Of a stretch of 60,399 nt of DNA, positions 1,958 to 34,018 are shown in pieces. Within the stretch, counting starts at the first letter, position 1. Every line of letters starts with the position of its first letter. Below the pieces are notes generated by a model, which did not search any database, was not told the DNA's origin, and was given only the letters and a program-made list of their open reading frames with translations. Source of the DNA: Devosia sp. 66-14 (lineage in GTDB: Bacteria; Pseudomonadota; Alphaproteobacteria; Rhizobiales; Devosiaceae); NCBI GenBank assembly GCA_001899085.1, contig MKVB01000003.1, positions 425,545 to 485,943 on the forward strand, written 5' to 3'. Both the position numbers and the translations under genes were made by a program.

Positions 1958-3007
1958 ATGGATATCACCCTCAAGCAGATGCAGATCTTCCGCGCCGTGG
2001 TGATCGCAGGATCGATCACCAAGGCGTCGCGGCGCGTCGGACTGAGCCAGCCTTCGATCAGCCAGCAGCTGGCCAAGCTCGAGGAGCGGCTGGGCACGCA
2101 GCTGATCAACCGCAACCGCACCGGCACGGTCAGCCTGACCCCTTCCGGCGAATACTGGTTCAAGTTTTCCGACGAGGTGCTCAGGAAATTCGACCAGGCG
2201 ATCGATGAGCACGAGAAGCGCTATGTCGACAGCCGGGTGTTCCTGCGGATCGGGCTCAGCCCGACCCTGCGCGGACGGTTCCTCTCGGCGGCGGCGCGGA
2301 TCGCCAGCGAGGAGCAGGGGTTCGCCAAGTTCGAAGTGAGCTATTCGACCACCAGCAGCGAGCTGGTGGAGCAGCTCAGGCTGCATCAGCTCAACTGCGT
2401 GATCGTCAACGACGACGCGCTGGCCGAGGACCGCTCGAGCTTCGCCACGGCGCTGCTGTTCCGCGACCCGATGGTGCTGCTGGTGCCGGCGGAGCTACCG
2501 CTGGGGATGCTGGAGAAGGCCCTGACCAAGGGCGTCAAGACCAACCAGCTCGACCATTCGCTCACCCGCTATGTCGAGATCAGCGCCAATGTGCCGATGC
2601 GGCCGGTGTCGGATGCCTGGTATCGCTCGAACCTGCCCTATGCGACGCCGGCCTTCTCGGCAATGACCTACGTGGCAGCGACCGACATCGTGTCGGAGGG
2701 CCTCGCGACGACGCATGTGCCGCTGTCGCTGGTGCCCAGCCTGCCCAATTCGGTGCGCTCGCGGATCAGGATCTACACGCTTGGCGGCATGGATCGTTCG
2801 ATCGTCCTCGCCATGCCCAAGCACCTGATGACGCTGCCGGGCTATGCCAACATCTTCAAGCGGCTGACCGACTTCTGCCGGCACGAGTACGCCCAGAACG
2901 TGCCGGCCGACAGCGTCCTGGAACTGCCGACCCCGGAACGGGCGCGGCACGACAAGGAACCGGCAGGCGGACGCGTGGTCGCCGGGGTGCAGCAGAATTA
3001 CCAATAG
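1958..3007 (+). CDS. LysR-family transcriptional regulator
   Basis: This is a 349-residue protein with an N-terminal winged helix-turn-helix (about residues 5-65, including SQPSISQQLAKLEERLG) and a LysR substrate-binding domain from about 90 to 300. The C-terminal tail is about 30 residues longer than usual and polar. I placed the start at ATG 1958 because the helix-turn-helix begins at once from there; the open frame upstream runs back into the cytochrome gene and its terminator. It stands immediately before the PQQ-dehydrogenase gene on the same strand and shares a sequence box with that promoter, so it is the obvious candidate regulator of alcohol oxidation. The effector is unknown. Confidence 0.88.
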   Translation: MDITLKQMQIFRAVVIAGSITKASRRVGLSQPSISQQLAKLEERLGTQLINRNRTGTVSLTPSGEYWFKFSDEVLRKFDQAIDEHEKRYVDSRVFLRIGLSPTLRGRFLSAAARIASEEQGFAKFEVSYSTTSSELVEQLRLHQLNCVIVNDDALAEDRSSFATALLFRDPMVLLVPAELPLGMLEKALTKGVKTNQLDHSLTRYVEISANVPMRPVSDAWYRSNLPYATPAFSAMTYVAATDIVSEGLATTHVPLSLVPSLPNSVRSRIRIYTLGGMDRSIVLAMPKHLMTLPGYANIFKRLTDFCRHEYAQNVPADSVLELPTPERARHDKEPAGGRVVAGVQQNYQ

Positions 3008-3088: not shown

Positions 3089-4837
3089 ATGCACCTGAAA
3101 CACCTGATGTCCGCCATGTTGGCGGGCAGCATGCTGGTCCTGCCGGGGATTGCCCTCGGCGCCGATGTGACCGCCGAGCGGCTTTCCGCCGCAGGCAGCG
3201 AAGCGGAGGCCGGCAACTGGCTGATGGTGCACCGCACCTATGATGCGCACCGCTACTCGCCGCTCAGCGAAATCACCCCCGAGAACGTCTCGGGTCTGAA
3301 GCTCGCCTTTGCCGTGCCGATCGGCGGCTCGGAGCCGGCCGGGTTCGGCGCCGGCTCGATGGAGGCAACGCCGCTCGCCAAGGACGGCTTCCTCTACATC
3401 TCCGATCCGTGGGGCACGCCCTACAAGATCGACGCTTCGGACGGCAAGCAGGGCAAGACCGTCTGGATCGGCGACACCGGCATCGACAAGGATCCGAGCC
3501 GCGGCATCCTGCTCGCCTCGCGTGGCCTGGCGCTGATCGACAACCTGGTGATCACCGTCCTCAATGACGGTCGCGTCATGGCGTTCGACGACGAGACCGG
3601 CGACGTGGTGTGGGACCAGCAGGTCGGCAAGGAGCCGGGCGAAGGCTTCACCAACGCCCCGCTGGTGGTGAAGGACAAGATCCTCGTTGGCCAGTCCTAT
3701 GGCGACTGGGCGACCCGCGGCTGGGTTGCGGCGCTCGACGCCAAGACCGGCGAGGAAGTCTGGCGTTTCTACACGGTTCCCGAGCCCGGCCAGCCCGGCT
3801 CCGAAACCTGGCTGTGCGACCAGTCGGGCAATCCCGATTGCTGGAAGACCGGCGGCGCGGCGGCCTGGGTGACCGGCTCGTACGACGAAGCCAGCAACAT
3901 CACGTACTGGGGCACGGGCAACCCGGTGCCGATGTACGATCCCGAATATCGTCCGGGCGACAACCTCTACTCCAACTCGACCGTGGCGCTCGACGCCGAT
4001 ACCGGCGAGCTGAAGTGGCACTTCCAGTACACCCCGGGCGACTACATGGACTATGACGAAGTCGGCGCCCAGCTGCTCGTCGATGCCAAGGTCGACGGCG
4101 AAGACCGCAAGGTGCTGGCGCATTTCGGCCGCAACGGCATCTTCTACACGCTCGACCGCACCAATGGTTCGTTCATCGCGGCCAACCCCTATGTGTCGAA
4201 GCTGAACTGGACCAAGGGCATCGACCCCAAGACCGGCAAGCCGGTTGAGTACGATGCGTCCAAGCCGCTCCAGGTCTATGCCAACGGCACCATGCGTCGT
4301 GGCGGCGAGACGGTGAACACCTGCCCGAACATCCAGGGCGGCATGAACTTCTGGCCTCCGGCGGTCGATTCGGTCTCCAACATCGCCTACGGCGCCGGCA
4401 TTGAAGGCTGCTCCGACCTGACCGTCGAGCAGAAGTCGCCGGAAGACGTGGCGCCGGGCGCCACCACCTTCGCCGGCGGCGCGGCGGCAGCTTCGGGTGC
4501 CCAGACGGGCGCGATCTTCGCGTTCGACGTCACCACCGGCAAGCAGGTCGCCAAGATCGAGCGTCCGTATCCCAACTATGCCGGCGTGATGACCACTCCG
4601 GGCCTGGTGTGGACCGGCGAGATGGACGGCACCTTCGGCGCCTATGACGCCAAGACCCTGGAGCAGAAGTGGTCGATCAACGTGGGCGGCACGTTCAGCG
4701 CCCCGCCGATCGCCTTCAAGGTCGGAGACAAGGAGTATATCGCGATCGCGGCCGGCGGCAGCGCCGTCACCACCTTCGGATACCCTGAACTCGCCAACCG
4801 TCCGGCGGCCAACGTGCTCTACGTGTTCGCGCTCTGA
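3089..4837 (+). CDS. PQQ-dependent alcohol dehydrogenase, lanthanide-type signature
   Basis: This is a 582-residue soluble quinoprotein with a signal peptide (residues 1-24) and an eight-bladed propeller, and no C-terminal haem domain. It oxidises alcohols in the periplasm with PQQ and passes electrons to cytochrome c. Metal and catalytic residues can be placed by comparison with MxaF, XoxF and ExaA: Asn278 in GTGNP, catalytic Asp321 in MDYDE, Arg348 in GRNG. Asp323, two residues after Asp321, is the extra ligand of lanthanide-dependent enzymes; calcium enzymes have Ala, Ser or Thr there. Two oddities: the usual metal-binding Glu aligns with Asp206 (SYGDW), and the vicinal Cys-Cys pair is missing (RGILLASRG). 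GGGGG at 3079-3083 supports the start. Substrate is not predictable. Confidence 0.92.
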   Translation: MHLKHLMSAMLAGSMLVLPGIALGADVTAERLSAAGSEAEAGNWLMVHRTYDAHRYSPLSEITPENVSGLKLAFAVPIGGSEPAGFGAGSMEATPLAKDGFLYISDPWGTPYKIDASDGKQGKTVWIGDTGIDKDPSRGILLASRGLALIDNLVITVLNDGRVMAFDDETGDVVWDQQVGKEPGEGFTNAPLVVKDKILVGQSYGDWATRGWVAALDAKTGEEVWRFYTVPEPGQPGSETWLCDQSGNPDCWKTGGAAAWVTGSYDEASNITYWGTGNPVPMYDPEYRPGDNLYSNSTVALDADTGELKWHFQYTPGDYMDYDEVGAQLLVDAKVDGEDRKVLAHFGRNGIFYTLDRTNGSFIAANPYVSKLNWTKGIDPKTGKPVEYDASKPLQVYANGTMRRGGETVNTCPNIQGGMNFWPPAVDSVSNIAYGAGIEGCSDLTVEQKSPEDVAPGATTFAGGAAAASGAQTGAIFAFDVTTGKQVAKIERPYPNYAGVMTTPGLVWTGEMDGTFGAYDAKTLEQKWSINVGGTFSAPPIAFKVGDKEYIAIAAGGSAVTTFGYPELANRPAANVLYVFAL

Positions 4838-4864
4838 CGGCAGAACGATATCCAACCTAACGAT

Positions 4865-4888
4865 GCCGGGCGGTTCCTACCGCCCGGC
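4865..4888 (+). repeat. Strong intercistronic hairpin
   Basis: Ten perfectly paired bases (GCCGGGCGGT with ACCGCCCGGC) close a four-base loop between the dehydrogenase stop (4837) and the cytochrome start (4920). No T-run follows, so it is probably not a simple terminator. A stem here could protect the dehydrogenase message or lower read-through into the downstream genes. Confidence 0.6.
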
Positions 4889-4919
4889 ACAGCTCATTGA
4901 AGAAAGAAGAGTTCCCGAG

Positions 4920-5528
4920 ATGTCGCTCCTCAACCGCAAATCCCTGGCGCTGCTGATGGCCGCCAGCCTCATCGCGGTCACTCCGTTGGCGCTCAACGCG
5001 GCGCAGCCGCCGGCCAACGCTCCGGCCGCGGAGACCGCCGCTCCGGCGGAGGCGCCCGCCGCCGATGCCGCGACCGCCGAACTCGACCCGCTGCTTGCCG
5101 GCGCTGATATCAACCGCGGCGTGGTGGTCTATGGCAGCCGCGGCGGCAACTGCGTCTCCTGCCACGGCTGGGACGGCAACGGGTTGGGCAAGAACCCGCG
5201 TTCGGAAGGCAATGCGGCGCTGCTGCGCGAGTCGGGCCTCGATGCGCAGGGCTTCATCGAGATCATCAGCTGCGGCATTCCCGGCACGCCGATGCCGTAC
5301 CACGATCCGCAGGCCTACAAGGACGATCGCTGCTACGGCATGAAGGCGGCCGATTTCGAAGCCGGCCAGATGCCCCACAAGGGCAAGGCGCTGAAGAAGG
5401 AAGATATCATCAGCCTCGTGGCCTACATCCAGACCCACATCCAGGGGAAACCCAAGGCGACCTACGAGGATTGCGCGTTCTATTTCGGCGCCTCGGCCGA
5501 AAAGTCCTGCGCGTTCCTGAAGAAGTAA
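4920..5528 (+). CDS. c-type cytochrome of the alcohol dehydrogenase cluster
   Basis: This 202-residue secreted cytochrome has a signal peptide (residues 1-27), an Ala/Pro-rich linker to about residue 55, one haem site CVSCH (Cys78, Cys81, His82), and likely axial ligand Met125 in GTPMPYH, with Met151 as the alternative. Extra cysteines at 118, 138, 185 and 197 could form two disulfides and are unusual for a simple class I cytochrome. GAAGAAAGAAGAG precedes the ATG. Position right behind the quinoprotein gene makes it the best candidate for the dedicated electron acceptor, as XoxG, ExaB and PedF are in other clusters, although it is not clearly orthologous to any of them. Confidence 0.88.
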   Translation: MSLLNRKSLALLMAASLIAVTPLALNAAQPPANAPAAETAAPAEAPAADAATAELDPLLAGADINRGVVVYGSRGGNCVSCHGWDGNGLGKNPRSEGNAALLRESGLDAQGFIEIISCGIPGTPMPYHDPQAYKDDRCYGMKAADFEAGQMPHKGKALKKEDIISLVAYIQTHIQGKPKATYEDCAFYFGASAEKSCAFLKK

Positions 5529-5531
5529 GCC

Positions 5532-6284
5532 ATGCAGCTGCGCCTGCTGCCGTTCTGCCTGGGCCTCGTCGGCGCGTTGGCGGCCATGCCGCCGGCGCTT
5601 GCGCAGTTCGACGTCAACCTGGTGCCCAAATATACGATCTGGGACATCAAGTTCGGCGAGCCGATCAGCCAGATCCCGCCCGAGGAAGTGGCCGAGATCG
5701 CCTGCGGCACCAATGGCGGGCCGCCATCGACGCCGCTCAAGGATTTCGCGGAGTTCGCCAGGTGCCCGGCCGAGCCGACCGGGCTGCACGAGGTGTTTTT
5801 CACCAATGACGACGAGGCCGACTACATCGCCAAGGCGCTGGAGGCGGAATATCGGGTCATGCAGGGCGGCACCTCGATCTATGCCCATCCGGTGGTGTTC
5901 TCGGTGCTGATCGATGCCGAGGGGATTGTCCGCGGCATCCGCATCGTGACCGACGAACGCGCCGCGGATCGGGAGCGGCGGGTGGCAATGACGCTGTCGC
6001 GCAACCTAAAGTCGCGCTACGGCCGCTGGGCGCAAGCTTGCGAAAACCTGCCGCCGACCGACGGGCAGCTGCCGGTCGGCAAGATTTTCGTGCACGAGAT
6101 CTGCACGGCGGACAGCCCGGAGGGCGATGCGCGGATGCGGCTCGAAGCCACCTATTTCCGCAAGAAGGGCCAGACCTCGATCAACCTCGAGACCCAGACG
6201 ATCAACAAGAACTACTTCCAGTCGGCGACGCGGCTCGAAGTGGTGCAGAAGCCGTACGAACCGGACACCAGGCCGGTCCGCTAG
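5532..6284 (+). CDS. Secreted protein of unknown function
   Basis: I do not recognise this 250-residue protein. A signal peptide (residues 1-25, ending ALA) predicts export. The mature part starts with aromatic and acidic residues, has an even mix of alpha and beta propensity, four cysteines (residues about 57, 77, 171 and 188) that could pair, and no transmembrane segment. The ATG is three bases after the cytochrome stop, so the two are almost certainly translated together. The next gene follows after 20 bases. It therefore belongs to the dehydrogenase-cytochrome transcription unit and might help assemble or anchor the redox proteins; this is only inferred from position. Confidence 0.8.
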   Translation: MQLRLLPFCLGLVGALAAMPPALAQFDVNLVPKYTIWDIKFGEPISQIPPEEVAEIACGTNGGPPSTPLKDFAEFARCPAEPTGLHEVFFTNDDEADYIAKALEAEYRVMQGGTSIYAHPVVFSVLIDAEGIVRGIRIVTDERAADRERRVAMTLSRNLKSRYGRWAQACENLPPTDGQLPVGKIFVHEICTADSPEGDARMRLEATYFRKKGQTSINLETQTINKNYFQSATRLEVVQKPYEPDTRPVR

Positions 6285-6304
6285 GGCGGGAGAGGAAGAC
6301 GTAA

Positions 6305-7060
6305 ATGAGGATGGCGTTGTTGGCGCTGCTGGTGCTGCTGCCGGGCTCGGCGTTTGCCGGGCCGGCAGAGGACCTCAAGAGCGGGGCGCGCACCGAGTGC
6401 CGCGGCTGCGATCTTTCGAACCAGAGCTTCAAGAAGGCAAACCTCGCGGGCGTCGATCTTTCGGGAGCGAACCTCAGCGGGACGACCTTCCACCGCGCCA
6501 ACCTCAAGGGTGCCAACCTGTCCAATGTCCTGGCGGAGGGCGCGAACTTCAACCTCGCGGACCTGGGCAGTGCCGATCTGAGCGGCGGGCATTTCAAGGA
6601 CGCGATGTTCTACGAGGCGCAGTTGTCGGGGGCCAAGTTGGCCAAGGCCGACCTGTCGGCGACCCGCATGCAGCATGCCCGGCTGACCGGCGCCGACCTC
6701 AGTGGCGCGGATCTCGATTGGGCGGTGATGAAAGAGGTGCGGCTCAACAACGCCAATCTCACCGACGCCTCGATGGAGCGCACCAACCTCGAAAAGGCCA
6801 GCGTGGGCCGCAGCAAGTTCGACGGCACCACCATCACCAGCGCCGGGTTCCTCGAGGTGAGCGCGCCGGGGGCAAGCTTCAAGGACGCCACGATCTCGTT
6901 GACCGACTTCTATGGCGCCGAACTCAACAATGCGAATTTCGCCGGCGCGACGCTGAGCGACAATCGCTTCACCCGTGCCAAGCTGAAGCTCGAGCAGTTT
7001 GCCGACACCACGTTCACACGCAACATCCTGCCGGACGGGCGGGTGCAGGGGACCCAATGA
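6305..7060 (+). CDS. Secreted pentapeptide-repeat protein
   Basis: The protein has 251 residues, with a signal peptide (residues 1-19) followed by a short Cys-containing segment (ECRGCDL) and about 30 tandem five-residue repeats of the A(D/N)Lxx type, for example ANLSG, ADLSG, ANLTD. Such repeats fold as a four-sided beta helix. The CRGC pair near residues 33-36 is often seen just before the repeats in exported members. The family does not indicate a specific function. It lies in the same run as the cytochrome and overlaps the start of the next gene by four bases (ATGA), which indicates translational coupling. Confidence 0.9.
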   Translation: MRMALLALLVLLPGSAFAGPAEDLKSGARTECRGCDLSNQSFKKANLAGVDLSGANLSGTTFHRANLKGANLSNVLAEGANFNLADLGSADLSGGHFKDAMFYEAQLSGAKLAKADLSATRMQHARLTGADLSGADLDWAVMKEVRLNNANLTDASMERTNLEKASVGRSKFDGTTITSAGFLEVSAPGASFKDATISLTDFYGAELNNANFAGATLSDNRFTRAKLKLEQFADTTFTRNILPDGRVQGTQ

Positions 7061-7560
7061 TGCGCATGAAACTAGGCCTCGCCGCGCTGGCGCTGACACT
7101 GGCGGTGTCCGGCGCCGTGGCGCAAGACGTGGTGAGCGGGGCGGCCAAGGTCGTCGATGCCGACATCATCATGGTGGACAAGCAGCGGGTGATCCTGTGG
7201 GCCGTCGATGCGCCGGAACGGCCGCAGAAATGCTATGTCGGCGAGCTGTTGTGGGATTGCTACGGCGCGGCGCGCCAGGCGCTCGGCGAGCTGATCGGTT
7301 CGGGCGAGGCGAGCTGCACGCTCACGCCCGGCGAGCCGGACAAGTTCAACCGGCGCTACGGGGTGTGCACCTCGGCGGGCAAGGATATCGGGGCCGAGCT
7401 GGTGCGACTCGGCATGGCGCGCGCCTTCCTCGAGCAGGGTGACGATTACGTGGCCCAGGAAGAGGAAGCCAAGGCCGCCCAGATCGGGGTGTTCCAGCCG
7501 GGCGCCAAGATCGATGCGCCGTGGGAATTCCGGAAGACCGATCCGCGGAACTATCGCTAG
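7057..7560 (+). CDS. Thermonuclease-fold (SNase-like) secreted protein
   Basis: This is a 167-residue protein with a signal peptide (about 1-22) and a staphylococcal-nuclease-like domain. The conserved strand RVILWAVDAPE matches the family pattern around the catalytic Arg and Glu, and NRRYGVC corresponds to the second Arg region. The usual DGDT calcium motif reads DADI, so the metal site is altered and nuclease activity may be weak or lost. Four cysteines (KCYVGELLWDC, SCT, VC) could form disulfides. ATG 7057 overlaps the stop of the pentapeptide gene. It is the last gene of this rightward run; a palindromic element follows. Confidence 0.85.
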   Translation: MMRMKLGLAALALTLAVSGAVAQDVVSGAAKVVDADIIMVDKQRVILWAVDAPERPQKCYVGELLWDCYGAARQALGELIGSGEASCTLTPGEPDKFNRRYGVCTSAGKDIGAELVRLGMARAFLEQGDDYVAQEEEAKAAQIGVFQPGAKIDAPWEFRKTDPRNYR

Positions 7561-7603
7561 GGTTCTGGTGGCCTGCGATCTGACGGGCCGGTGGTGGAAG
7601 TGC

Positions 7604-7701
7604 ACCCCCCACCCTGTCCCTCCCCCGCAAAGGGGGGAGGAGACCCTGCGGCGATTGCCTTCGCCCCACCAACACCGATGCAAGGGGACAGGGGTGGGGG
7701 T
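7604..7701. repeat. Palindromic intergenic element (variant class)
   Basis: Arms of CCCCCCACCCTGTCCC and GGGGACAGGGGTGGGGG face each other at the ends of a 98-base unit, with an inner CTCCCCC/GGGGGGAG stem. The inner stem resembles those of the elements at 27419 and 35472, though the outer arms differ. It lies between two converging genes and could double as a bidirectional terminator. Confidence 0.6.
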
Positions 7702-7723
7702 ATCTCTTGCACTCGGTCTTTGT

Positions 7724-8475
<752 letters not shown>

Positions 8476-8479
<4 letters not shown>

Positions 8480-9228
8480 GGCTGGGCGGGCTCCCGTGCG
8501 CCGACCGAAGCGGCGATCCGGTTGGCGATGGCTTCCCGCTCGGTGCGGCTGCGTTCGCCGCGCGGGGTTTCGAAGCGGTAATCGGCAGCGATGCGGGCAG
8601 GGCGACCGCTCAGCACGATGGCGCGGTCGGCCAGCATGGCGGCATCCTCGGGCAGGTGGGTGACGAGCAGCACGGTGGGGCGGCTGGCGGCGATCAGCGC
8701 GAACAGCACCTGCTCCATCTCCTGCACCAGGGTGCGATCGAGCGAAACGAAGGGCTCGTCGAGCAGCAGCAGGCGCGGGTTGACCGAGAAGGCGCGGGCC
8801 AGCGCGACGCGGCGCTGCATGCCGCCCGACAGCTCATGCGGGAAATAGTGCTCGAAGCCGGCAAGCCCGACGCGGCGCAGCATCTCGGCGGCGTCCTGTT
8901 CGGTGGTCTGGGGGCGCACGGCGCGGATATTGTCCAGCGCCGTCAGCCAGGGCAGCAGCCGCGCGTCCTGAAAGACGAAGCCGGCGGGTGGCGCGGCAGC
9001 GGCGGCAACGCCGTCGACGCTGACAGTGCCGGAGAACAGCGTGTCGATGCCGCCCACCATGCGCAAAAGCGTGGATTTGCCGACGCCGGAGGGACCGACA
9101 AGCGCCACCACCGAGGAAGGTTCGACCACCAGATCGAAGCGCTCGAGCAGCGGTTCGGGCAGGAAATCGAAGCGCTTGCCGTCGATGGCGATATCGAGAC
9201 GGGGACCGGTCATCGCGGTTGCCGCCAT
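8476..9228 (-). CDS. NitT/TauT-type ABC transporter ATPase
   Basis: This 250-residue importer ATPase of the nitrate/sulfonate/taurine family has Walker [10 protein letters not shown] near residue 46, signature LSGGMQRR near 136, and Walker B LLLLDEPF near 155. It would power uptake with the permease (9210-9908) and the binding protein (10022-11017), which lie upstream on the same strand. Its start overlaps the permease 3' end by 19 bases, which implies coupled translation. Substrate cannot be read from the ATPase. Confidence 0.9.
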
Positions 9229-9908
9229 CTGAGCACCCGGCGTTCGAGCGGACGCAGGATCAGGTACTCGAACACGAAGACCACCAGGATGAAGGCCGTG
9301 GTGTAGGCAAAGATGCCCTTGATGTCGAAGAACTGGAAGAACACCGAAATGCGGAAGCCGACGCCGCCGTCGGAGCCCAGCACCTCGAAGACCAGGACAA
9401 TCTTCCAGATCAGGCTCAGCCCGGTGCGGGCGGCGGCGAGCACGAACGGCATCAGCTGCGGCACCGAGATCAGCCGCAGCTGGCGCAGGAACGGCATGCG
9501 GAAGGCGCGGCCGAGATCGTCATAGGCGGGATCGAAGCTGCGGACGCCCTCGCGGATGGTGGCGATGACCAGCGGCAGCTTGTTGAGCACCACGGCGAGG
9601 ATCAGCGCGAACTCGGTGAGGCCCAGCCAGATATAGAGCACGATGGCGATGACGATGGCGGGAACGTTGAGCCCCACCACCACCCAGGCCGAGAACAGCC
9701 GGTCGGCGACCCGCGAGCGGCCCAGCGCGATGCCGATGGCGGTGCCGAGCGCCATGGCGACGACGAAGGCGATGCTGGCGCGGGTGAGGGTCTTGCCCAG
9801 ATCGGGCAGCAACTTGCCCGAGCTGGCCAGGGTCCAGACATGCACGCCGACATCGACGGGGGTGGGGAACAGACGCGACGGGAACAGCATGGCAAGGACC
9901 TGCCACAC
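9210..9908 (-). CDS. NitT/TauT-type ABC transporter permease (true start uncertain)
   Basis: This is a membrane permease of the SsuC/TauC type, with the cytoplasmic coupling-loop region around EGVRSFDPAYDDLGRAF. GTG 9908 gives 232 residues, but that start falls inside the first membrane helix. The frame stays open upstream, with a hydrophobic run LELVSLLLLLAVWQVL preceded by Arg-rich residues exactly as family members have. No ATG, GTG or TTG occurs in frame between 9909 and the end of the binding-protein gene at 10022. The real start may be a rare codon (GTA 9989, CTG 10013 or GTT 10019), or there is a sequence error. Confidence 0.82.
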   Translation of the reverse strand: MWQVLAMLFPSRLFPTPVDVGVHVWTLASSGKLLPDLGKTLTRASIAFVVAMALGTAIGIALGRSRVADRLFSAWVVVGLNVPAIVIAIVLYIWLGLTEFALILAVVLNKLPLVIATIREGVRSFDPAYDDLGRAFRMPFLRQLRLISVPQLMPFVLAAARTGLSLIWKIVLVFEVLGSDGGVGFRISVFFQFFDIKGIFAYTTAFILVVFVFEYLILRPLERRVLRWRQPR

Positions 9909-10021
9909 AGCCAGAAGCAGCAGCAGGCTGACCAGCTCGAGGGGAAACCCTCGCCTCGCCGGGCGCTGCTGCTGCCTGTCCGAAGTTACGGCTGCGGTCC
10001 TGCCGTCGCGCAGTTCAACGG

Positions 10022-11017
10022 CTATTTGCGATAGCCTTTCCAGAAGGTGCCGTCGGCCAGCTCGGTCGAGTCGCCGACCACGTCCGGACCACCGAACTTG
10101 GCCATGACGGCGAAGGATTCTTCGGCCGGCTTCATGTTGGACGCAGAGTACTTCGTGATGATGCCGGCACGGTAGTCGTCGCGCAGCTGGGTGAACAGCG
10201 CGTCGTCATCGCCGACATTCATCACGTCGCGGATCTTGTCCCAGAGCGCATCGTCGGTGAGCAGGGCGTTCTTGGTCTCGAAGCTGGCGTCGAGGAACCC
10301 CTTGATCGCGGCTTTCTTGGTGCGACCGGTCTCGTCGAAAAAGGCCCAGCCGAGCAGCGGCGGGGTTTCGGAGACGCCGAGATCGGCGAGCATGGCGGCG
10401 CCCGAGATCAGTTCGGTCTTTCCCGCCAGCTTGGCGCGGGAGTTCCAGTTCCACAGGTTGAGCGCGGCCTGGGCCTGGCCGCCGGTGAGCAGCTCGTTGA
10501 CCAGCGGCGGCGCGCCGAACTTGGCCTCGGCATCTTCGGTCAGGTTGCCGCCGGTCAGCTTGTTGTACTCGGCGGCGAGGATGACGTAGCTCTTGTCCAC
10601 CGGGCTGCCGGAGACGGCGAGGGTCTTGCCCTTGAGATCGGCGACGCTGGCAATGCCGGCGGCCGGATCGACCATCAGCCCGCCGACGGTCAGCGAGTGC
10701 GGCACCATGGTGACCATGTTGCCCTGGTGGCGCTGGATCGAGACCCAGACGAAATCGGACAGGATGACGTCGACCTGCTTGGCCTGCAGGGCGATCTGCC
10801 CGGCCTTGCTGTCGGCGACGTCACGGATGTCGAGCTTCAGGTGATGCTTCTTGTCGAGCTCGAGCGCCTGCATGGCGGCGAGCTCCCATTTCACGGTGCC
10901 GGTCGCCTGCACGCCGAGCGACAGTTTCTCCGGCTCGCCGTGCTGGGCGAAGGCGCCGGAGACGGCGCCGAACACCAGGGCTGCACCCAGCAGCACGGCC
11001 TGAATTATCTTGGGCAT
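10022..11017 (-). CDS. NitT/TauT-family ABC substrate-binding protein
   Basis: This is a 331-residue periplasmic binding protein. A signal peptide (residues 1-25, ending AFA) precedes two lobes of the NMT1/THI5-like fold, the family behind aliphatic sulfonate, nitrate, taurine and pyrimidine-precursor uptake. GGGAGGAACC directly before the ATG at 11017 decides the start against an upstream in-frame ATG at 11068. It begins the leftward operon that ends with the PQQ-associated ATPase, and lies head-to-head with the cupredoxin-like gene. Position inside an alcohol-oxidation island suggests import of a related small molecule or cofactor precursor; the ligand is not predictable from sequence. Confidence 0.88.
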   Translation of the reverse strand: MPKIIQAVLLGAALVFGAVSGAFAQHGEPEKLSLGVQATGTVKWELAAMQALELDKKHHLKLDIRDVADSKAGQIALQAKQVDVILSDFVWVSIQRHQGNMVTMVPHSLTVGGLMVDPAAGIASVADLKGKTLAVSGSPVDKSYVILAAEYNKLTGGNLTEDAEAKFGAPPLVNELLTGGQAQAALNLWNWNSRAKLAGKTELISGAAMLADLGVSETPPLLGWAFFDETGRTKKAAIKGFLDASFETKNALLTDDALWDKIRDVMNVGDDDALFTQLRDDYRAGIITKYSASNMKPAEESFAVMAKFGGPDVVGDSTELADGTFWKGYRK

Positions 11018-11188
11018 GGTTCCTCCCGCGGAACGCGTCGATATCGTTGGTGAGTGCAGCGCTAGCACCCGGGATCATTGGGCTTGGCTATATCATGTAT
11101 TGAGGCTGGCGGGTTGCTGGCGCGCGGCGGGACAGCAGATTGTAAATTGCGATAATGCTGATCGAAACTGCCTATGGGGGCCACTATT
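11018..11188. promoter_or_regulatory. Divergent promoter region of the two transporter operons
   Basis: These 171 non-coding bases separate the two oppositely oriented operons. GATAAT at 11151-11156 is a possible -10 for the rightward operon. GATATA on the minus strand near 11090 is a possible -10 for the leftward one. The -35 elements are weak, so an activator may be needed. One regulator bound here could control both transporters. Confidence 0.45.
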
Positions 11189-11602
11189 ATGAAGACCATT
11201 TTTGCTGCCGCGACCGCTGTGCTGATGCTGGCCGGAGTGGCGCATGCCGAAGGCAATCTCGCGGCGAACGGCACCGACCTGAAACTCGAGATCAACACCG
11301 TCGACCTCAAGTTCAGCCAGGAGGTGTGGGAGCTCGAGACCGGCAAGTACTACAAGCTCGACATCACCTCGGACGGCAACGAGGAGATCGCCGTGGTGGC
11401 GCCCGAGCTGTTCCGCAATTCGTGGATCAACCAGATTGTCGTCAACGACCTCGAAGTGAAGAGCTATGGTCTCTACTCGGTGGAGTTCGACGATGCGGGC
11501 ACCTTCAACATCACCTTCGTGCCGATCCGTCCGGGCGAGTATGACATCTATGTGCCGGGCTACGAGAACCGCGGGCTGAAGGGGAAGTTCATCGTCAAAT
11601 GA
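11189..11602 (+). CDS. Secreted cupredoxin-like protein lacking copper ligands
   Basis: This 137-residue protein has a signal peptide (residues 1-21, ending AHA). The mature domain is beta-rich and resembles cupredoxin-fold proteins (LKFSQEVWELETGKYYKLDITSDG, closing with the PGEYDIYVPGY segment). The mature part contains no Cys, His or Met, so it cannot form a type 1 copper site. It is rich in Asp and Glu, so binding of another hard metal ion is conceivable. ATG 11189 is preceded by GGGGG; an alternative ATG lies at 11174. It starts the rightward operon and overlaps the beta-propeller start by four bases. Confidence 0.82.
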   Translation: MKTIFAAATAVLMLAGVAHAEGNLAANGTDLKLEINTVDLKFSQEVWELETGKYYKLDITSDGNEEIAVVAPELFRNSWINQIVVNDLEVKSYGLYSVEFDDAGTFNITFVPIRPGEYDIYVPGYENRGLKGKFIVK

Positions 11603-12588
11603 GGTTCACCCGACGGACATTCGTCGCGACGGCGACGGCCCTGCTCGCAGCGAGCGTGGTGCCGCGTGCCGTCGCCAAGGGCACGGGGATGATTTTCGTG
11701 TCCACCGAGAAGGGCAACGAAGTGGTGGTGCTCGACCAGTCGCTGGCCGTGGTCAAGCGCATCGCCACATCGCGCCGGCCGCGCGACATGCACTTCAATG
11801 CCGCCAAGGAGCTGCTCTACGTCGCCTGCGGCGATGACGACGCGATCGACGTGATCGACGTGGCGACGCTGGAAGTGGTGGACTCGATCCCCACGGGACC
11901 ATCGCCCGAAGTGTTCGCCTTCTCGCCCGACGAGAAGGTGATCTACGTCTCGAACGAGGAGGACTCCCGGCTCGAGGCGATCGACATGGAGACGCGGGTT
12001 TCCATCCAGGATATTCCGACCGGCGCCGAGCCGGAGGGCGTTCTGGTCATGCCGGACGGCAAGACGGCGTATGTCACTTCGGAAGTCGCCGACATGGTGC
12101 ACGTGGTCGACACCACCACCGGGGCGGTGACCAAGAACATCCTCGTCGGCACGCGTCCGCGCCGCTTCATCCTGACCCCGGATGGGACGGAGCTGTGGGT
12201 CAGCTGCGAGCTGTCATCGGAGATCTACATCATCGATACGGCCACCAACGAGATCAAGGGCGACAGCCTGATCTTCGTGCCGCCCGGCTTCCGCGAGGAA
12301 GACGTGACGCCGGTGGGCATGGCGGTGACCAGGGACGGCTCGAAGATCCTGCTCAGCCTGGGGCGCGCCAACCACGTGGTGATCATCGACGGCAAGACGC
12401 ACGACGTGCTGCAATATGTGCTGGTCGGCAAGCGGGCCTGGTCGGTGGATCTCTCCAGCGATGAGAGCAAGGCCTATGTGGCCAACGGGCTGTCCGACGA
12501 CATCACGGTGATCGACATGGCGTCGATGAAGCCGATCCAGTCGGTGCCGGTGGGACGCGTACCGCATTCGGTGGTGATCGATGACTAA
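11599..12588 (+). CDS. YVTN beta-propeller protein of PQQ-dependent catabolism
   Basis: The protein has 329 residues. The N-terminus (TRRTFVATA) matches a twin-arginine signal, so it may be exported folded. It is followed by seven YVTN-type blades with repeated motifs such as LLYVACGDDDAIDVIDV, KVIYVSNEEDSRLEAID and KAYVANGLSDDITVIDM. It corresponds to model TIGR03866 (PQQ-dependent catabolism-associated beta-propeller). A similar propeller in the methylotroph lut cluster is reported to bind lanthanides (my recollection is LutD). Its start overlaps the preceding stop (ATGA), and its end overlaps the next gene by eight bases. Confidence 0.9.
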   Translation: MRFTRRTFVATATALLAASVVPRAVAKGTGMIFVSTEKGNEVVVLDQSLAVVKRIATSRRPRDMHFNAAKELLYVACGDDDAIDVIDVATLEVVDSIPTGPSPEVFAFSPDEKVIYVSNEEDSRLEAIDMETRVSIQDIPTGAEPEGVLVMPDGKTAYVTSEVADMVHVVDTTTGAVTKNILVGTRPRRFILTPDGTELWVSCELSSEIYIIDTATNEIKGDSLIFVPPGFREEDVTPVGMAVTRDGSKILLSLGRANHVVIIDGKTHDVLQYVLVGKRAWSVDLSSDESKAYVANGLSDDITVIDMASMKPIQSVPVGRVPHSVVIDD

Positions 12589-13774
12589 GCTGCATCGGGT
12601 CGGTTCGAACCTGCTCTACGGTCTCCTCCCCCTGGCGGCGGCGCTGTTTCTCGGCGGCGCCGCCTTTTCTGCCGAAGTCAAGATCGGCTATCTGGGGCTC
12701 AAGGACGACCCGCGCTATCACCCCGACCTCGTCTACACCCGCATCGAGATCGCGCCGGGCGGCAACCCGATCGACGGGGCGACGATGGGTGTGGAAGAAA
12801 TGAAGGTGGTGTCGGACGCGGTGGACCAGCAGGTGGTGCTGGATCGCCAGGAAGCGACCGATGCGGCGTCGCTGGTCGCCAAGCTCGACGAGATGGTCAA
12901 GGCGGGCGAACAGTTCGTCATCCTCGACCTGCCGGCCGAGCTGGTGGACCAGGTGGCCGGCCAGACCCGCGAGTGGCCGGTGACGCTGCTCAATGCCACG
13001 GCGCCGGAGGATTACCTGCGCCAGCGCTGCTACCCCAACCTGCTGCACACCGCCGCTTCTGACCGCATGCTGTCCGACGCCATGGTGCAGCTGCTGCGCA
13101 CCCGCAACTGGACCAAGGTGCTGATGCTGGTGGGGGCCGAACCGCGCGACAAGGCAATGGCAGCGGCGTTCCGCGCCTCGGCCGAGCGGCAACGCTTCAA
13201 CATCGTGGGCGAGCGCGAGTTCACCCTCGCCACCGATCCGGCGAACCGCGAGAGAAACAACTCGCTGCTGATCACCGGCAACGCCGATTACGACGTGGTG
13301 TTCGTCGCCGACCACCAGGGCGAGTTCTCTCGCTACCTGCCTTATGACACGCAGCTGCCGCGCCTCGTGGTGGGCTCGACCGGACTGGTCGCGGCGGAGT
13401 GGCAGTGGAGCTGGGACCGCGACGGTTCGACCCAGGTCACCTCGCGCTTCGAGACGCTGACCAACGGGCGCCGGATGACCGGGCAGGACTGGTCGACCTG
13501 GATCGCCGCCAAGGCGATCGTCACCGCCTATGCCAAGGCGCGCAGCGGCGAGTACCAGAAGACCGCCGACTATATTCGCGGCAACCGGTTGAAGATCGAT
13601 GGCGCCAAGGGCGTGCAGCTCAACTTCCGGCCGTGGGACGGGCAGATGCGGTTTCCGATCGTGCTGGCGACCCACAACGCGGTGATCGCAGAAGCACCGC
13701 TCGAGGGCTTCCTGCACCAGACCAACGTGCTCGATACGCTGGGCACCGATGAGCCGGAGCACAAGTGTCAGTAA
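12581..13774 (+). CDS. ABC substrate-binding protein, PQQ-alcohol-dehydrogenase system
   Basis: This 397-residue exported protein has a signal segment (about residues 8-30) and a type 1 periplasmic-binding (branched-chain amino acid-like) fold. It fits model TIGR03863 (PQQ-dependent alcohol dehydrogenase system binding protein). It overlaps the beta-propeller gene by eight bases and the permease gene by ten, a tight translational chain. Pairing an importer-style binding protein with an ABC-2-style permease is a known peculiarity of this system, whose cargo has been proposed to be an alcohol, a cofactor or, in lut clusters, lanthanide. No ligand can be assigned here. Confidence 0.88.
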   Translation: MTKLHRVGSNLLYGLLPLAAALFLGGAAFSAEVKIGYLGLKDDPRYHPDLVYTRIEIAPGGNPIDGATMGVEEMKVVSDAVDQQVVLDRQEATDAASLVAKLDEMVKAGEQFVILDLPAELVDQVAGQTREWPVTLLNATAPEDYLRQRCYPNLLHTAASDRMLSDAMVQLLRTRNWTKVLMLVGAEPRDKAMAAAFRASAERQRFNIVGEREFTLATDPANRERNNSLLITGNADYDVVFVADHQGEFSRYLPYDTQLPRLVVGSTGLVAAEWQWSWDRDGSTQVTSRFETLTNGRRMTGQDWSTWIAAKAIVTAYAKARSGEYQKTADYIRGNRLKIDGAKGVQLNFRPWDGQMRFPIVLATHNAVIAEAPLEGFLHQTNVLDTLGTDEPEHKCQ

Positions 13775-14577
13775 GCGCACAGCACCTGTGGCTCGGGGTC
13801 TATGCCATCACCTGGCGGGAGATCGCCAAGTTCCTCCGCCAGACCGAACGGCTGCTGTCGGCGCTGGTGCGGCCGGCGCTGTGGCTCATCGTGTTCGCCA
13901 CGGGTCTGCACGACCTGCTCGGCGTTTCGATCGTTCCGCCCTACCAGACCTATACGCCCTATCAGGAATATATCCTGCCCGGGCTGGTGGGGATCGTCAT
14001 CCTGTTCCAGTGCATGCAGTCGGCGCTGTCGATGGTCTATGACCGCGAAGCCGGGGTGATGCGGGTGATGCTGGTAACGCCGCTGCCGCGTGGCTTCCTG
14101 CTGTTTGCCAAGATCACCGGCGCGACCATCCTGGCGCTGCTGCAGGCCTATGCGTTCCTGATCGTGGCGCGGCTGGTCGGCTACGGGGTGCCGGATTTCG
14201 GCTACCTCACCGCCATTCCGGCGATCATCCTCGCCGGGCTGATGCTGGGCTCGATCGGACTCCTGGTTTCGGTCTACACGCCGCAGATCGAGAATTTTGC
14301 CGGGATGATGAACTTCGTGGTGTTCCCGATGTTCTTCCTCTCCTCAGCGCTCTACCCGCTGTGGAAGCTCAGGGAATCCGGGGCCGAGATCGTCTACTGG
14401 CTGAGCGTGGTGAACCCGTTCACCCACGCGGTGGAACTGATCCGCTTCGCCATGTACGGGCAGCTCAACCTCGTCTCGCTCGGCGTGGTGGCAGGCTGCG
14501 CGGCAGTGGCGTTCCTGCTCGCGGCACGCGGCTACGACCCGCAGGCCGGGGCGATCCGCAAAGTGAAGCGGGACTAA
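13765..14577 (+). CDS. ABC-2-type permease, PQQ-alcohol-dehydrogenase system
   Basis: This is a 270-residue membrane protein with six hydrophobic segments and the ABC-2 motif region YDREAGVMRVMLVTPLPR. It resembles PedC/LutF permeases (TIGR03861). Its cognate ATPase is probably the product of 7724-8479, transcribed from the other side of the shared promoter region. GTG 13765 overlaps the binding-protein stop by ten bases. It closes the rightward operon. About 900 bases with little coding content follow. Confidence 0.88.
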   Translation: MSVSAQHLWLGVYAITWREIAKFLRQTERLLSALVRPALWLIVFATGLHDLLGVSIVPPYQTYTPYQEYILPGLVGIVILFQCMQSALSMVYDREAGVMRVMLVTPLPRGFLLFAKITGATILALLQAYAFLIVARLVGYGVPDFGYLTAIPAIILAGLMLGSIGLLVSVYTPQIENFAGMMNFVVFPMFFLSSALYPLWKLRESGAEIVYWLSVVNPFTHAVELIRFAMYGQLNLVSLGVVAGCAAVAFLLAARGYDPQAGAIRKVKRD

Positions 14578-30532: not shown

Positions 30533-31732
30533 TCAGAACTCGGGTTCGGCCCCGATCGAGTGGATCGAGAGGTCGGCGCCGCGGCGCTGCTGTTCATCGC
30601 TGAGGCGGACCGGAGCGACGCGGTTGGACAGCCAATAGAGCAGGTAACCGGCGGCGAAGGCGTAGGCCGAGACAGCGAACGAGCCCACCAGCTGGGTGAC
30701 GAAGGAGACGCCGCCCATGCCGCCCAGCGCCTCGAGCCCGAAGATGCCGGCGGCAATGCCGCCCCACAGGCCGCAGAGGCCATGCAGCGGCCAGACGCCG
30801 AGCACGTCGTCGACCTTGAGCCTTTCCTGGGTCCAGCTGAAACCCTTGACGAAGATGACGCCGGCCACCGCGCCGACGGCGAGCGCCGCCAGCGGGTGGT
30901 AGAGGTCGGAGCCGGCGCAGACGGCGACGAGGCCGGCCAGCGCGCCGTTATGGGTGAAGCCCGGGTCGTTGCGGCCGATCACCACGGCGGCGATGATGCC
31001 TCCGACCATCGCCATCAGCGAGTTGATGGCGACGAGCCCGGAAACGCCAGCGACCGACTGGGCCGACATGACGTTGAAGCCGAACCAGCCGATGCAGAGC
31101 AGCCAGGTGCCGAGCGCCAGCCATGGGATCGAGGAGGGGGCGAAGGGGCGGCCGTTCGGACCGTAGCGGCCGACGCGAGCGCCCATGCGCAGCACCGCGG
31201 CCAGCGCCAGCCAGCCGCCGAGCGCATGCACCTGGATCGAGCCGGCAAAATCGTGGAAGCGGGCGCCGAAGCTGGCTTCGAGCCAGGCCTGGATGCCGTA
31301 ATTGGCGTTCCAGACGATGCCCTCGGAGAACGGGTAGATCAGCCCGACGATGACGGCAGCGGCGATCACCTGCGGCCAGAACTTCGCCCGCTCGGCGATG
31401 CCGCCCGAAATGATCGCCGGCACTGCCGCGGCAAAGGTGGCGAGGAAGAAGAACTTCACCAGGCTGAAGCCCTGCGGGGCGAAGCCGGCGCCGCCGCCCG
31501 AAAGCGTTGCGGCATTGTGGAAGAAGGTGACGCCATAGGCGATGGAATAGCCGATGACGAAATAGGCCAGGGTCGAGAAGGCGAAGTCGACCAGGATCTT
31601 GACCAGCGCATTGACCTGGTTCTTGCCGCGCACCGTCCCCAGTTCGAGAAAGGCGAAACCGCCATGCATGGCGAACACCAGGATCGCGCCGACCAGCACA
31701 AAGAATACGTCGAGCCCAGCGGACTCAGCCAT
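30533..31732 (-). CDS. Ammonium transporter, divergent AmtB homologue
   Basis: This 399-residue channel has about eleven membrane helices. Conserved parts: AMHGGFAFLELGTVRGKNQ at the start, one pore His in IQVHALGGW and the other in PLHGLCGLWGGIAAGIFG. It conducts ammonium/ammonia across the inner membrane. It lacks the signal peptide of the second AmtB and is diverged from it (for example FAGSIQVHALGG in place of FAGGTVVHINSG), so it belongs to another Amt clade. GGGAGG supports ATG 31732. A sigma-54-like box (31788-31803) lies upstream, and a small membrane ORF follows. Confidence 0.93.
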   Translation of the reverse strand: MAESAGLDVFFVLVGAILVFAMHGGFAFLELGTVRGKNQVNALVKILVDFAFSTLAYFVIGYSIAYGVTFFHNAATLSGGGAGFAPQGFSLVKFFFLATFAAAVPAIISGGIAERAKFWPQVIAAAVIVGLIYPFSEGIVWNANYGIQAWLEASFGARFHDFAGSIQVHALGGWLALAAVLRMGARVGRYGPNGRPFAPSSIPWLALGTWLLCIGWFGFNVMSAQSVAGVSGLVAINSLMAMVGGIIAAVVIGRNDPGFTHNGALAGLVAVCAGSDLYHPLAALAVGAVAGVIFVKGFSWTQERLKVDDVLGVWPLHGLCGLWGGIAAGIFGLEALGGMGGVSFVTQLVGSFAVSAYAFAAGYLLYWLSNRVAPVRLSDEQQRRGADLSIHSIGAEPEF

Positions 31733-32215
31733 TGAAGCCTCCCAAGCAAACCCGGCTCGCATCCGGGTCAATTCGGGGGCATGGCAATCAAGCCGCGTGC
31801 CAGTCGGCCGGGCAGAAAGAGTGAAGCGGTTTCAGTGGCTTATGCGGAGGGGCAAAACCCGATGGCTTCGCGCGTGGCGAAGTGCTCAAGATTTGGGCGG
31901 CCAGCGGTCCGGCTCTGCCCACAAAGTGAGCAGGGGCGATGTCGCCTGGCGGGGCGAGAATCGGCCCGTCGCCGGGCCCGGAGCCGTTGACCGGGGTGTG
32001 CAGCCCACGCGGTTTGCGAGTGGGAAGCCTCTGTGGCGGGCCAAGAGGTACGTGAGCTGCACGCCGCGATCAGCGGGTGGAAATCCGGGCGGCAGCCCGG
32101 TTTCCGGGGTCGGAGAGCCGAGCCGCAACCCGGCTCTCCGGAGGTGGACGCGGGCGAAGGGGAGGAGGTCTCCGCTCGCGTCGGCTAGGCGGTCGCGTCC
32201 TGACGACGCTCCGGC
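31733..32215. other. 483-base gap between the two amtB genes
   Basis: No gene could be supported here. It contains the sigma-54-like box of the first amtB gene (31788-31803) and two strong stems near the end of the glnK-amtB unit: 32111-32140 (ten-base arms CGGAGAGCCG/CGGCTCTCCG) and 32079-32105 (GGAAA-CCGGGC/GCCCGGTTTCC with one bulge). The stems probably mark the 3' end of glnK-amtB transcripts. Confidence 0.5.
31788..31803 (-). promoter_or_regulatory. Sigma-54-type promoter of divergent amtB
   Basis: On the minus strand CTGGCACGCGGCTTGA matches the sigma-54 pattern TGGCACG-N4-TTGC except for A in place of the final C. The predicted start point lies about 45 bases before the amtB ATG. It differs at only two of 16 positions from the box in front of glnK. 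Confidence 0.6.
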
Positions 32216-33583
32216 CTAGTTATAGGCGCGCTCGCCATGGCTGGAGAGGTCGAGGCCATCGCTTTCGGCCGACTCGGTGACGCGGGCGCCGCCGAACACT
32301 GCCTTGACGATGAACATCGCGATGAGGGCCACCACGGCCGACCAGACGATGGCGATCCCGACGCCGGTCAGCTGCTTGATGAACTGGCCCCACATATCGT
32401 AGTCGGCCAGCGGGTAGCCGCCGAACGAGGGGTTGGCGACGAAGGCGGTGCCCAGGGCGCCGACGATGCCGCCAACGCCATGGATGCCGAACACGTCGAG
32501 CGAGTCGTCGTATTTGAACATCGGCTTCAGCGTCACGACGGCCCACAGGCAGACCACGCCGGCAATGGCGCCGAGAACGATCGCCCCGATGGTGCCGGCG
32601 AAACCGGCGGCCGGGGTGATGGCGACGAGACCGGCAACGGCACCCGAAGCAAAGCCGAGCAGCGAGGCATGGCCGCGGGTGAACTTCTCAGCCAGGCCCC
32701 AGGCGAGGGCCGCTGCGGCCGGCGCCGTGATGGTGTTGAGGAAAGCCTGGGCGGTGAGGCCGTTGGCTTCGAGGTTCGAGCCGGCATTGAAGCCGAACCA
32801 GCCGAACCAGAGCAGGCCCGCGCCGATGAAGACGAAGGTCAGGTTGTGCGGCGGGATCGGTTCCTTGAGGAAGCCGGTGCGCGGGCCGAGGACGATGGCG
32901 GCGATGAGGGCGGCCACACCGGAGTTGATGTGCACCACGGTGCCGCCGGCGAAGTCATAAGCGCCCAGGTTGAACAGGTAGCCGGTGCCGGCCCAGACCA
33001 TGTGGGCGATCGGCAGGTAGGAGAAGGTGAACCAGATGGCGAGGAACAGCATCACGGCGCCGAACTTCATGCGCTCGGCGATGCCGCCGACGATGAGGGT
33101 GGAGGTGATGCAGGCAAAGGTGAGCTGGAACACCACGAACACCAGTTCGGGCAGCTGGAAGCCGGCCGAGAAGGTGGCGGCGGTCGATTCGATCGTCACA
33201 CCGGAAAGGAACAGCTTGGAGAAATCGCCGATGACGGCAGACAGGCCGCCTTCGGAACCGCCGAAGGCGAGCGAGTAGCCATAGGCCACCCAGAGCAGGG
33301 CGATCATGGCGACGCCACCCAGCACCTGGCTGAGGATCGAGAGCACGTTCTTGGCGCGCACCAGGCCGCCATAGAACAGGGCGAGGCCCGGCACGATCAT
33401 CACGAAGACGACCATGGTCGAGACCAGCATCCAGGCGGTGTCGCCCTTGTCGATGATGGGGGTGACTTCGGCGGCGGCTTCAGCCACCGGCGCCGCGGCA
33501 TCCTGGGCGAAGGCGGGCAGGGCGAGAGCCAGCGAGGCCAGCGCCGCAGCTCCCAGGACTTTTGACATCTTCAAGTCTGTCAT
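32216..33583 (-). CDS. amtB: Ammonium transporter AmtB (glnK-linked)
   Basis: This 455-residue protein has an N-terminal signal peptide (about residues 1-25), then eleven membrane helices. Signature parts: MVPGLALFYGGLVRAKNVLSI, the pore His residues in GGTVVHINSG and FGIHGVGGIVGAL, and the Trp/Phe gate region YDFAGG. It takes up ammonium under nitrogen limitation and is blocked by GlnK. It is 26 bases downstream of glnK on the same strand, the classic pair. The start at 33583 fits the signal peptide; the open frame continues upstream through glnK but is only a shadow there. Confidence 0.96.
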   Translation of the reverse strand: MTDLKMSKVLGAAALASLALALPAFAQDAAAPVAEAAAEVTPIIDKGDTAWMLVSTMVVFVMIVPGLALFYGGLVRAKNVLSILSQVLGGVAMIALLWVAYGYSLAFGGSEGGLSAVIGDFSKLFLSGVTIESTAATFSAGFQLPELVFVVFQLTFACITSTLIVGGIAERMKFGAVMLFLAIWFTFSYLPIAHMVWAGTGYLFNLGAYDFAGGTVVHINSGVAALIAAIVLGPRTGFLKEPIPPHNLTFVFIGAGLLWFGWFGFNAGSNLEANGLTAQAFLNTITAPAAAALAWGLAEKFTRGHASLLGFASGAVAGLVAITPAAGFAGTIGAIVLGAIAGVVCLWAVVTLKPMFKYDDSLDVFGIHGVGGIVGALGTAFVANPSFGGYPLADYDMWGQFIKQLTGVGIAIVWSAVVALIAMFIVKAVFGGARVTESAESDGLDLSSHGERAYN

Positions 33584-33609
33584 TGGTGTTTCTCCAGAGG
33601 GTAGCGGCA

Positions 33610-33948
33610 TCAGAGCGCGGCCGCGCCGGTTTCGCCGGTGCGGATACGGGTGACGGCCAGCAGGTCGAGCACGAAGATCTTGCCGTCGCCGATGCGGCCC
33701 GTCTGGGCACTCTCGCGGATGGCCGAGACGATGGCGTCGGACTGGGCGTCGTCGACAGCGATCTCGATCTTGAGCTTTGGCAGGAAGTGCACCGCATACT
33801 CGGTGCCGCGGTAGATTTCGGAATGGCCCTTCTGCCGGCCATAGCCTTTCACTTCGGTCACGGTCATGCCGTGCACGTCGAGCGAGTTGAGGGCCTGGCG
33901 GACCTCTTCCAGGCGCGACGGTTTGATGATTGCGATCACCAGCTTCAT
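33610..33948 (-). CDS. glnK: PII nitrogen regulatory protein GlnK
   Basis: This is a 112-residue PII protein. MKLVIAIIKP begins the family fold, the T-loop carries Tyr51 (RGTEYAVHF), the site of uridylylation by GlnD, and the C-terminus has TGRIGDGKIFV (nucleotide binding). It senses ATP/ADP and 2-oxoglutarate and plugs AmtB when nitrogen is plentiful. AAGGGG lies before ATG 33948. A sigma-54-type box sits about 55 bases upstream, indicating NtrC control. Linkage to amtB favours GlnK over GlnB. Confidence 0.96.
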   Translation of the reverse strand: MKLVIAIIKPSRLEEVRQALNSLDVHGMTVTEVKGYGRQKGHSEIYRGTEYAVHFLPKLKIEIAVDDAQSDAIVSAIRESAQTGRIGDGKIFVLDLLAVTRIRTGETGAAAL

Positions 33949-34002
33949 GGATGCCCCTTTCGATACGTGGGTTTGGACTGTCTCCAATCGGCTCAAACAG
34001 AC

Positions 34003-34018
34003 TCAAGTCGCGTGCCAA
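34003..34018 (-). promoter_or_regulatory. Sigma-54-type promoter of glnK-amtB
   Basis: On the minus strand TTGGCACGCGACTTGA fits the -24 element fully and the -12 element except the last base. The start point would be near 33992, leaving a 44-base leader before glnK. NtrC sites may lie further upstream (34100-34200), but I could not define one. Confidence 0.65.

Follow-up and report, generated by a model that had tools for sequence, protein, structure and literature searches.

A PQQ dehydrogenase of a separate clade in an island with Lut-type and PqqT-type transport genes in Devosia sp. 66-14

Which cofactors serve a secreted dehydrogenase of the pyrroloquinoline quinone (PQQ) type that carries the Asp-x-Asp (D-x-D) mark of lanthanide enzymes, and what do the two transport systems encoded beside it carry? 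The question is raised by a window of 60,399 nucleotides of the genome of Devosia sp. 66-14 (C3:425545-485943 of genome G000; 5.72 Mb, 13 contigs), in which the island of interest comprises the open reading frames within positions 3089-14577, including a minus-strand LutE-like ATPase at 7724-8479. We consider it fairly probable that this island unites a secreted PQQ dehydrogenase for alcohol (or aldehyde), which belongs to a separate clade, with a cytochrome c, three accessory secreted proteins, and importers of the LutA-B-C-E-F type for lanthanides and of the PqqT type for PQQ. Judged from sequence, the island likely serves to oxidize alcohol in the periplasm, with dedicated handling of lanthanide and PQQ. 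Here, L-numbers denote gene loci and G-numbers the genomes used in comparison, and C5 and C7 are dehydrogenase paralogs of G000 itself.

The initial annotation had recognized an Asp two residues beyond Asp321, and the motif D321-Y322-D323 was confirmed at this numbering in the 582-amino-acid dehydrogenase. Among the 42 loci with a dehydrogenase of this kind, 37 supplied full-length orthologs (L047 and L049-L052 were dropped as split or partial), and D206, N278, D321, Y322, D323, W252, R145, and R348 are identical in all 37. Because D321, Y322, and D323 are kept throughout, the D-x-D motif is beyond what chance would yield. Two features had escaped the initial annotation, namely the absence of vicinal cysteines (none of the 37 orthologs has a Cys pair in that region) and an Asp, Asp206, at the position of the metal-ligand Glu of PedH and XoxF. 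In an alignment with PedH (6zcv), XoxF1 (6oc5), and a quinohemoprotein alcohol dehydrogenase, the window enzyme has GDW where the others have GGE or GAE, and it keeps the Asn, Trp, and Arg positions; it also has D-x-D in common with XoxF1 and PedH, whereas the Trp of their GVLTT/GALAT segment is replaced by Tyr. The roles of these residues, including Glu as metal ligand and Cys-Cys as a disulfide, we take to be those of the known enzymes. The D-x-D motif and the linkage to Lut genes suggest that the dehydrogenase is probably a lanthanide-using variant, with Asp206 and the missing disulfide lending uncertainty to this assignment.

In a midpoint-rooted tree of 29 dehydrogenase rows, 17 rows that include the window enzyme split from those of XoxF, PedH, and the quinohemoproteins (support 100/99), which suggests a clade apart from XoxF and PedH. 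The placement against lanthanide and calcium clades that the initial annotation had called for thus came out negative for XoxF and PedH, two shared features of which the enzyme has lost, and is partial on the calcium side, ExaA and MxaF not being among the rows. Within the group of 17, Cys-Cys and Glu are kept in the C5 paralog and G275f. The other 15 rows (96/94) lack Cys-Cys, 12 of them having Asp and three having no acid at the Glu position, and the grouping of the 12 Asp rows is weak (87/56). The sister proteins C7, G275d, and G275e have lost the acidic residue at this position. The sister PQQ dehydrogenases of L003 (the C7 paralog), L166, and L168 keep D-x-D with no acid at the Glu position, and may have either an altered metal site or another role.

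The nearest orthologs of the dehydrogenase are from Devosia, namely Devosia insulae (98%) and Devosia sp. Root413D1 (97%), and orthologs at E <= 1e-180 are present in 11 of 19 genomes of the genus. The 42 dehydrogenase loci show that the island recurs in Devosia and in Rhodobacterales, Maritimibacter included. In 28 of the 42, the dehydrogenase is followed downstream by Lut or PqqT-type genes; the remaining 14 comprise L015 and L046, which are weighed below, and loci that end early or are inconclusive, such as L020. Among loci that extend far enough, most have a LysR gene upstream and most keep the secreted cytochrome c with the dehydrogenase. Many Rhodobacterales loci have the pentapeptide gene inverted and a longer gap before LutE. 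The gap between the SNase-like gene and LutE in L048 (14419-16509) encodes a MotA/ExbB-family protein and two proteins without a Pfam match, whereas the window has none of these genes there. Ratios of nonsynonymous to synonymous substitution rates for the dehydrogenase were 0.04-0.25 in five within-Devosia comparisons.

The four PQQ-associated transporter parts that had been likened to the lut genes of methylotrophs are indeed present, and with a LutC-like protein they form a LutA-, B-, C-, E-, and F-like set of the Lut/Ped type. The permease (TIGR03861, 341 bits against a cut-off of 241) and the propeller (TIGR03866, 318 bits against 287) pass their models, and the ATPase and binding protein have the matching models as best hits below cut-off. 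The acidic cupredoxin-like protein was likewise recovered (isoelectric point about 4.4, assuming cleavage at residue 25), and this LutC-like protein matches Pfam Cupredoxin_1 only below cut-off. Locus L135 of the Methylobacterium-like genome G117, the dehydrogenase of which groups with XoxF1 6oc5 in the 29-row tree, encodes LutA, LutB (propeller), LutC (cupredoxin-like), an 80-amino-acid protein, LutE, LutF, and a TonB-dependent receptor, in this order; these names were assigned by gene order against excerpts of PMC7391723, a published demonstration of the lut genes of M. extorquens. The LutC-like proteins of the window and L135 share 51% identity over the local match and 39% over the alignment. 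The cupredoxin-like gene is more widely distributed than lut, as several of 30 loci have no Lut-like neighbor within 1.5 kb. A different arrangement was seen in another family of the order, where TauB- and TauC-like genes adjoin LutC-like and propeller genes (L075, 430-3398).

The proposal of an uncharacterized module did not hold for the transporter. By its sequence, the transporter is of the PedA1A2BC/Lut type, a kind already described in the non-methylotroph Pseudomonas putida, where PedA1A2BC is required for growth at low La according to excerpts of PMC6839425. The ped cluster of P. putida KT2440, as far as the excerpted PMC6839425 and PMC12997753 describe it, shares with the island its four transporter families, together with a pentapeptide protein and a PQQ dehydrogenase, again in a non-methylotroph. 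It differs in dehydrogenase clade and active site, and the window adds a LutC-like protein as well as an operon of the PqqT type. The window also has LysR upstream, whereas a PedS2/PedR2-like pair was not recognized among the island open reading frames, no search having been aimed at one. With the lut cluster of Methylorubrum extorquens AM1 (compared via L135 and the portion of PMC7391723), the island shares the LutA, B, C, E, and F families, but no LutD-like, TonB receptor, or lanmodulin-like gene was recognized in it.

Such a LutA-F set is not bound to serve the adjoining enzyme, and the dehydrogenase might use calcium, another metal, or either, with the Lut genes serving another enzyme such as the C5 paralog. 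That paralog, on another contig, is canonical in having Cys-Cys, Glu, and D-x-D, and the change of Glu to Asp and the loss of the disulfide in all 37 orthologs also fit this explanation. We nevertheless regard it as unlikely, given that D-x-D is invariant in the same 37 sequences and that at 28 of the 42 loci Lut genes accompany this enzyme.

The NitT/TauT-type importer noted in the initial annotation is complete, with ATPase, permease, and binding protein in the island, and is most plausibly a PQQ system of the PqqT type. Its binding protein matches PqqT at E 9e-42 with 31% identity and the same fold, and PqqT is the closest of the solved proteins both by sequence and by fold. One PqqT structure entry bears the title 'with PQQ and Gd3+ bound'. 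In M. extorquens, PqqT acts as a PQQ-binding protein (Ho and Cotruvo 2019, as cited in the excerpt of PMC12124388); unlike PqqT of that organism, the window operon has a LutE-like ATPase at its end. Generic models name the importer a sulfonate/taurine system, and its cargo could be a sulfonate, a thiamine precursor, or an oxidized product instead of PQQ. We consider this quite improbable, even though the window protein does not conserve Tyr161 of PqqT, which would speak for such a cargo; at this position, many relatives have Tyr or Phe. Sulfonate transport and methanol dehydrogenase are handled in separate sections of PMC6754898, in the excerpts of that article. No description of an association between PqqT and Lut was present among the literature matches listed on NitT/TauT-type transport, lanthanides, xoxF, and Devosia, PqqT itself never having been a search term.

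Co-occurrence was evaluated in 289 alphaproteobacterial genomes, using thresholds of E <= 1e-15 for the PqqT-type protein and E <= 1e-60 for the TIGR03861 permease (all over cut-off). The PqqT-type protein was identified in 30 genomes, the permease in 40, and pqqC in 48. The PqqT-type protein and the Lut/Ped permease occur together in 28 of the 30, spanning 19 families. The two permease-less exceptions are G206 (93% complete) and G227; the G227 importer is about 200 bases away from the end of its contig and is flanked on the opposite side by a LutE-like gene. The PqqT-type protein is present in one of 14 genomes that encode pqqC without the permease and in five of six that encode the permease without pqqC; it follows the Lut/Ped permease more closely than it follows PQQ synthesis.

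Physical linkage was scored at 29 PqqT-type loci outside G000, including two whose contigs, measuring 3.1 and 5.1 kb, are so short that they could hardly show linkage. Under a strict rule, PQQ dehydrogenase, pqq, or Lut genes lie near 17 of the 29; L138, with only a LutE-like ATPase nearby, was scored as unlinked. None of 36 control loci showed such neighbors, these being regions of 4.7-19.9 kb, drawn from 21 genomes of the set, that surround other binding proteins of the NMT1 family and were hand-picked with the best-scoring places first. At the unlinked locus L145 (9319-13996), Pfam matches identify ExbB, ExbD, and TonB genes after the importer, and L140, which ends after ExbD, and L161 resemble it by eye. 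The presence of such genes after the importer in these small AT-rich genomes suggests coupled uptake across the outer membrane.

Elsewhere in the Devosia genome, the sole pqqC match passes its cut-off on another contig, with neighbors that we label pqqB-, D-, and E-like. The single TonB-barrel match in 5.7 Mb, of the heme/hemoglobin type, lies beside an SbmA/BacA-like ATP-binding cassette protein (C6:1215556-1216893, L088). Both of these single matches lie outside the window, in line with the initial annotation. When the genome was searched for fae, which marks the formaldehyde pathway common among methylotrophs, no match was returned, in agreement with the proposed non-methylotroph lineage. 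Collectively, what was first observed in the sequence is confirmed and its interpretation is partly supported.

The island could operate as follows. PQQ, whether scavenged or synthesized through the pqq genes of this genome, would meet lanthanide in the periplasm once the metal has passed the outer membrane, and the dehydrogenase would bind both there, the metal being held by Asp321/Asp323, Asn278, and Asp206. An alcohol would then be oxidized at PQQ and the electrons passed to the adjacent cytochrome. The Lut part would move lanthanide into the cytoplasm, as a supply or a signal, and the PqqT part may recover PQQ or a PQQ-metal complex.

Several observations weigh against a system dedicated to alcohol oxidation with lanthanide and PQQ. 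Both Asp206 in place of the usual Glu ligand and the loss of the vicinal cysteines extend to all 37 orthologs, so that the chemistry of known lanthanide enzymes is not simply transferable, and the best model for the dehydrogenase, TIGR03075, is matched below cut-off (422 of 480 bits). The Lut-type ATPase (TIGR03864, 267 bits against 302) and binding protein (TIGR03863, 374 bits against 413.6) also fall short, and at Tyr161 of PqqT, which is altered in 9ooz, the window protein has Leu. L015 and L046 have neither Lut nor PqqT-type genes in 10 kb downstream, and the island of L019 has Lut genes without the PqqT-type importer. The Fisher test for association of the PqqT-type protein with the permease (p 3e-27) takes no account of relatedness. 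The PqqT-type protein is missing from 12 of the 40 genomes with the permease, and it correlates with pqqC as well, which 24 of its 30 genomes encode. No LutH-like receptor was found in the genome, its one TonB receptor match being heme-type and on another contig. Alternatively, the dehydrogenase might have ceased to be an enzyme and act in the periplasm as a sensor or sink that binds PQQ or metal. This would fit its two lost active-site features, the loss of the acid in C7, G275d, and G275e, and its score against the NCBIfam model 'acido-empty-quinoprotein' (341 bits, well short of the cut-off of 650), but is very improbable given that the remaining catalytic-site positions checked are all invariant and that the operon continues with a secreted cytochrome c, which is retained in most loci reaching that far.

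A bolder extension, possible but rather doubtful, is a holo-cofactor system in which a lanthanide dehydrogenase has a new Asp-Asn-Asp-Asp site and no redox disulfide, the PqqT-type importer carries a PQQ-lanthanide complex and is tied to Lut through the operon shared with LutE, and PqqT-type systems belong generally to alphaproteobacterial lanthanide metabolism rather than to PQQ synthesis. If true, the defining metal site of lanthanide enzymes would tolerate Asp for Glu and work without a vicinal disulfide, PQQ capture would be tied to lanthanide uptake across 19 alphaproteobacterial families, and an importer named a sulfonate/taurine system by generic models would have a testable role. A survey based on D-x-D only, as in the excerpted text of PMC11996626, would score such an enzyme as lanthanide-binding and leave its other changes unseen.

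The island is arranged in three blocks (Table 1). The first plus-strand block runs from LysR through the dehydrogenase, cytochrome c, 250-amino-acid protein, and pentapeptide protein to the SNase-like protein; the minus-strand block comprises the PqqT-like binding protein, permease, ATPase, and LutE-like ATPase, the last three genes of which overlap; and the second plus-strand block comprises LutC-, LutB-, LutA-, and LutF-like genes in that order.

Table 1. Predicted genes of the island, with positions in the window.
Feature	Position	Strand	Remarks
LysR-type regulator	1958..3007	+	upstream of dehydrogenase; start inferred, open reading frame from 1775
PQQ dehydrogenase, 582 amino acids	3089..4837	+	predicted metal site D206, N278, D321, D323; no vicinal cysteines
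Secreted cytochrome c (CVSCH)	4920..5528	+	Pfam Cytochrome_CBB3 and Cytochrom_C above cut-off; proposed electron acceptor
Secreted 250-amino-acid protein	5532..6284	+	no Pfam, NCBIfam, or PDB sequence match
Secreted pentapeptide-repeat protein	6305..7060	+	Pfam
Secreted SNase-like protein	7060..7560	+	Pfam SNase 23.2 bits, cut-off 21
LutE/PedB-like ABC-2 ATPase, last gene of PqqT-type operon	7724..8479	-	TIGR03864 best hit, below cut-off
PqqT-type importer ATPase	8476..9228	-	taurine/sulfonate ATPase models; 4-base overlap with next gene
PqqT-type importer permease	9210..9908	-	Pfam BPD_transp_1
PqqT-like binding protein	10022..11068	-	closest to PqqT by sequence and fold
LutC-like acidic cupredoxin-like protein	11174..11602	+	homology and gene order against lut locus L135
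LutB/PedA2-like propeller	11599..12588	+	TIGR03866 above cut-off
LutA/PedA1-like binding protein	12581..13774	+	TIGR03863, below cut-off
LutF/PedC-like permease	13765..14577	+	TIGR03861 above cut-off

The 250-amino-acid protein has cysteines 58, 78, 170, and 191 invariant in 30 aligned sequences. It is present in 5 of 240 genomes of the class, with nine copies in G275 (2.5 Mb), six of which were inspected and each lie near a PQQ dehydrogenase. The C5 and C7 dehydrogenase paralogs of G000 have the same 250-amino-acid and pentapeptide partners alongside. Farther along the window, two adjoining minus-strand genes of the ammonium transporter family occupy positions 30533-34018; the second, its start being unsure, may have a long N-terminal extension.

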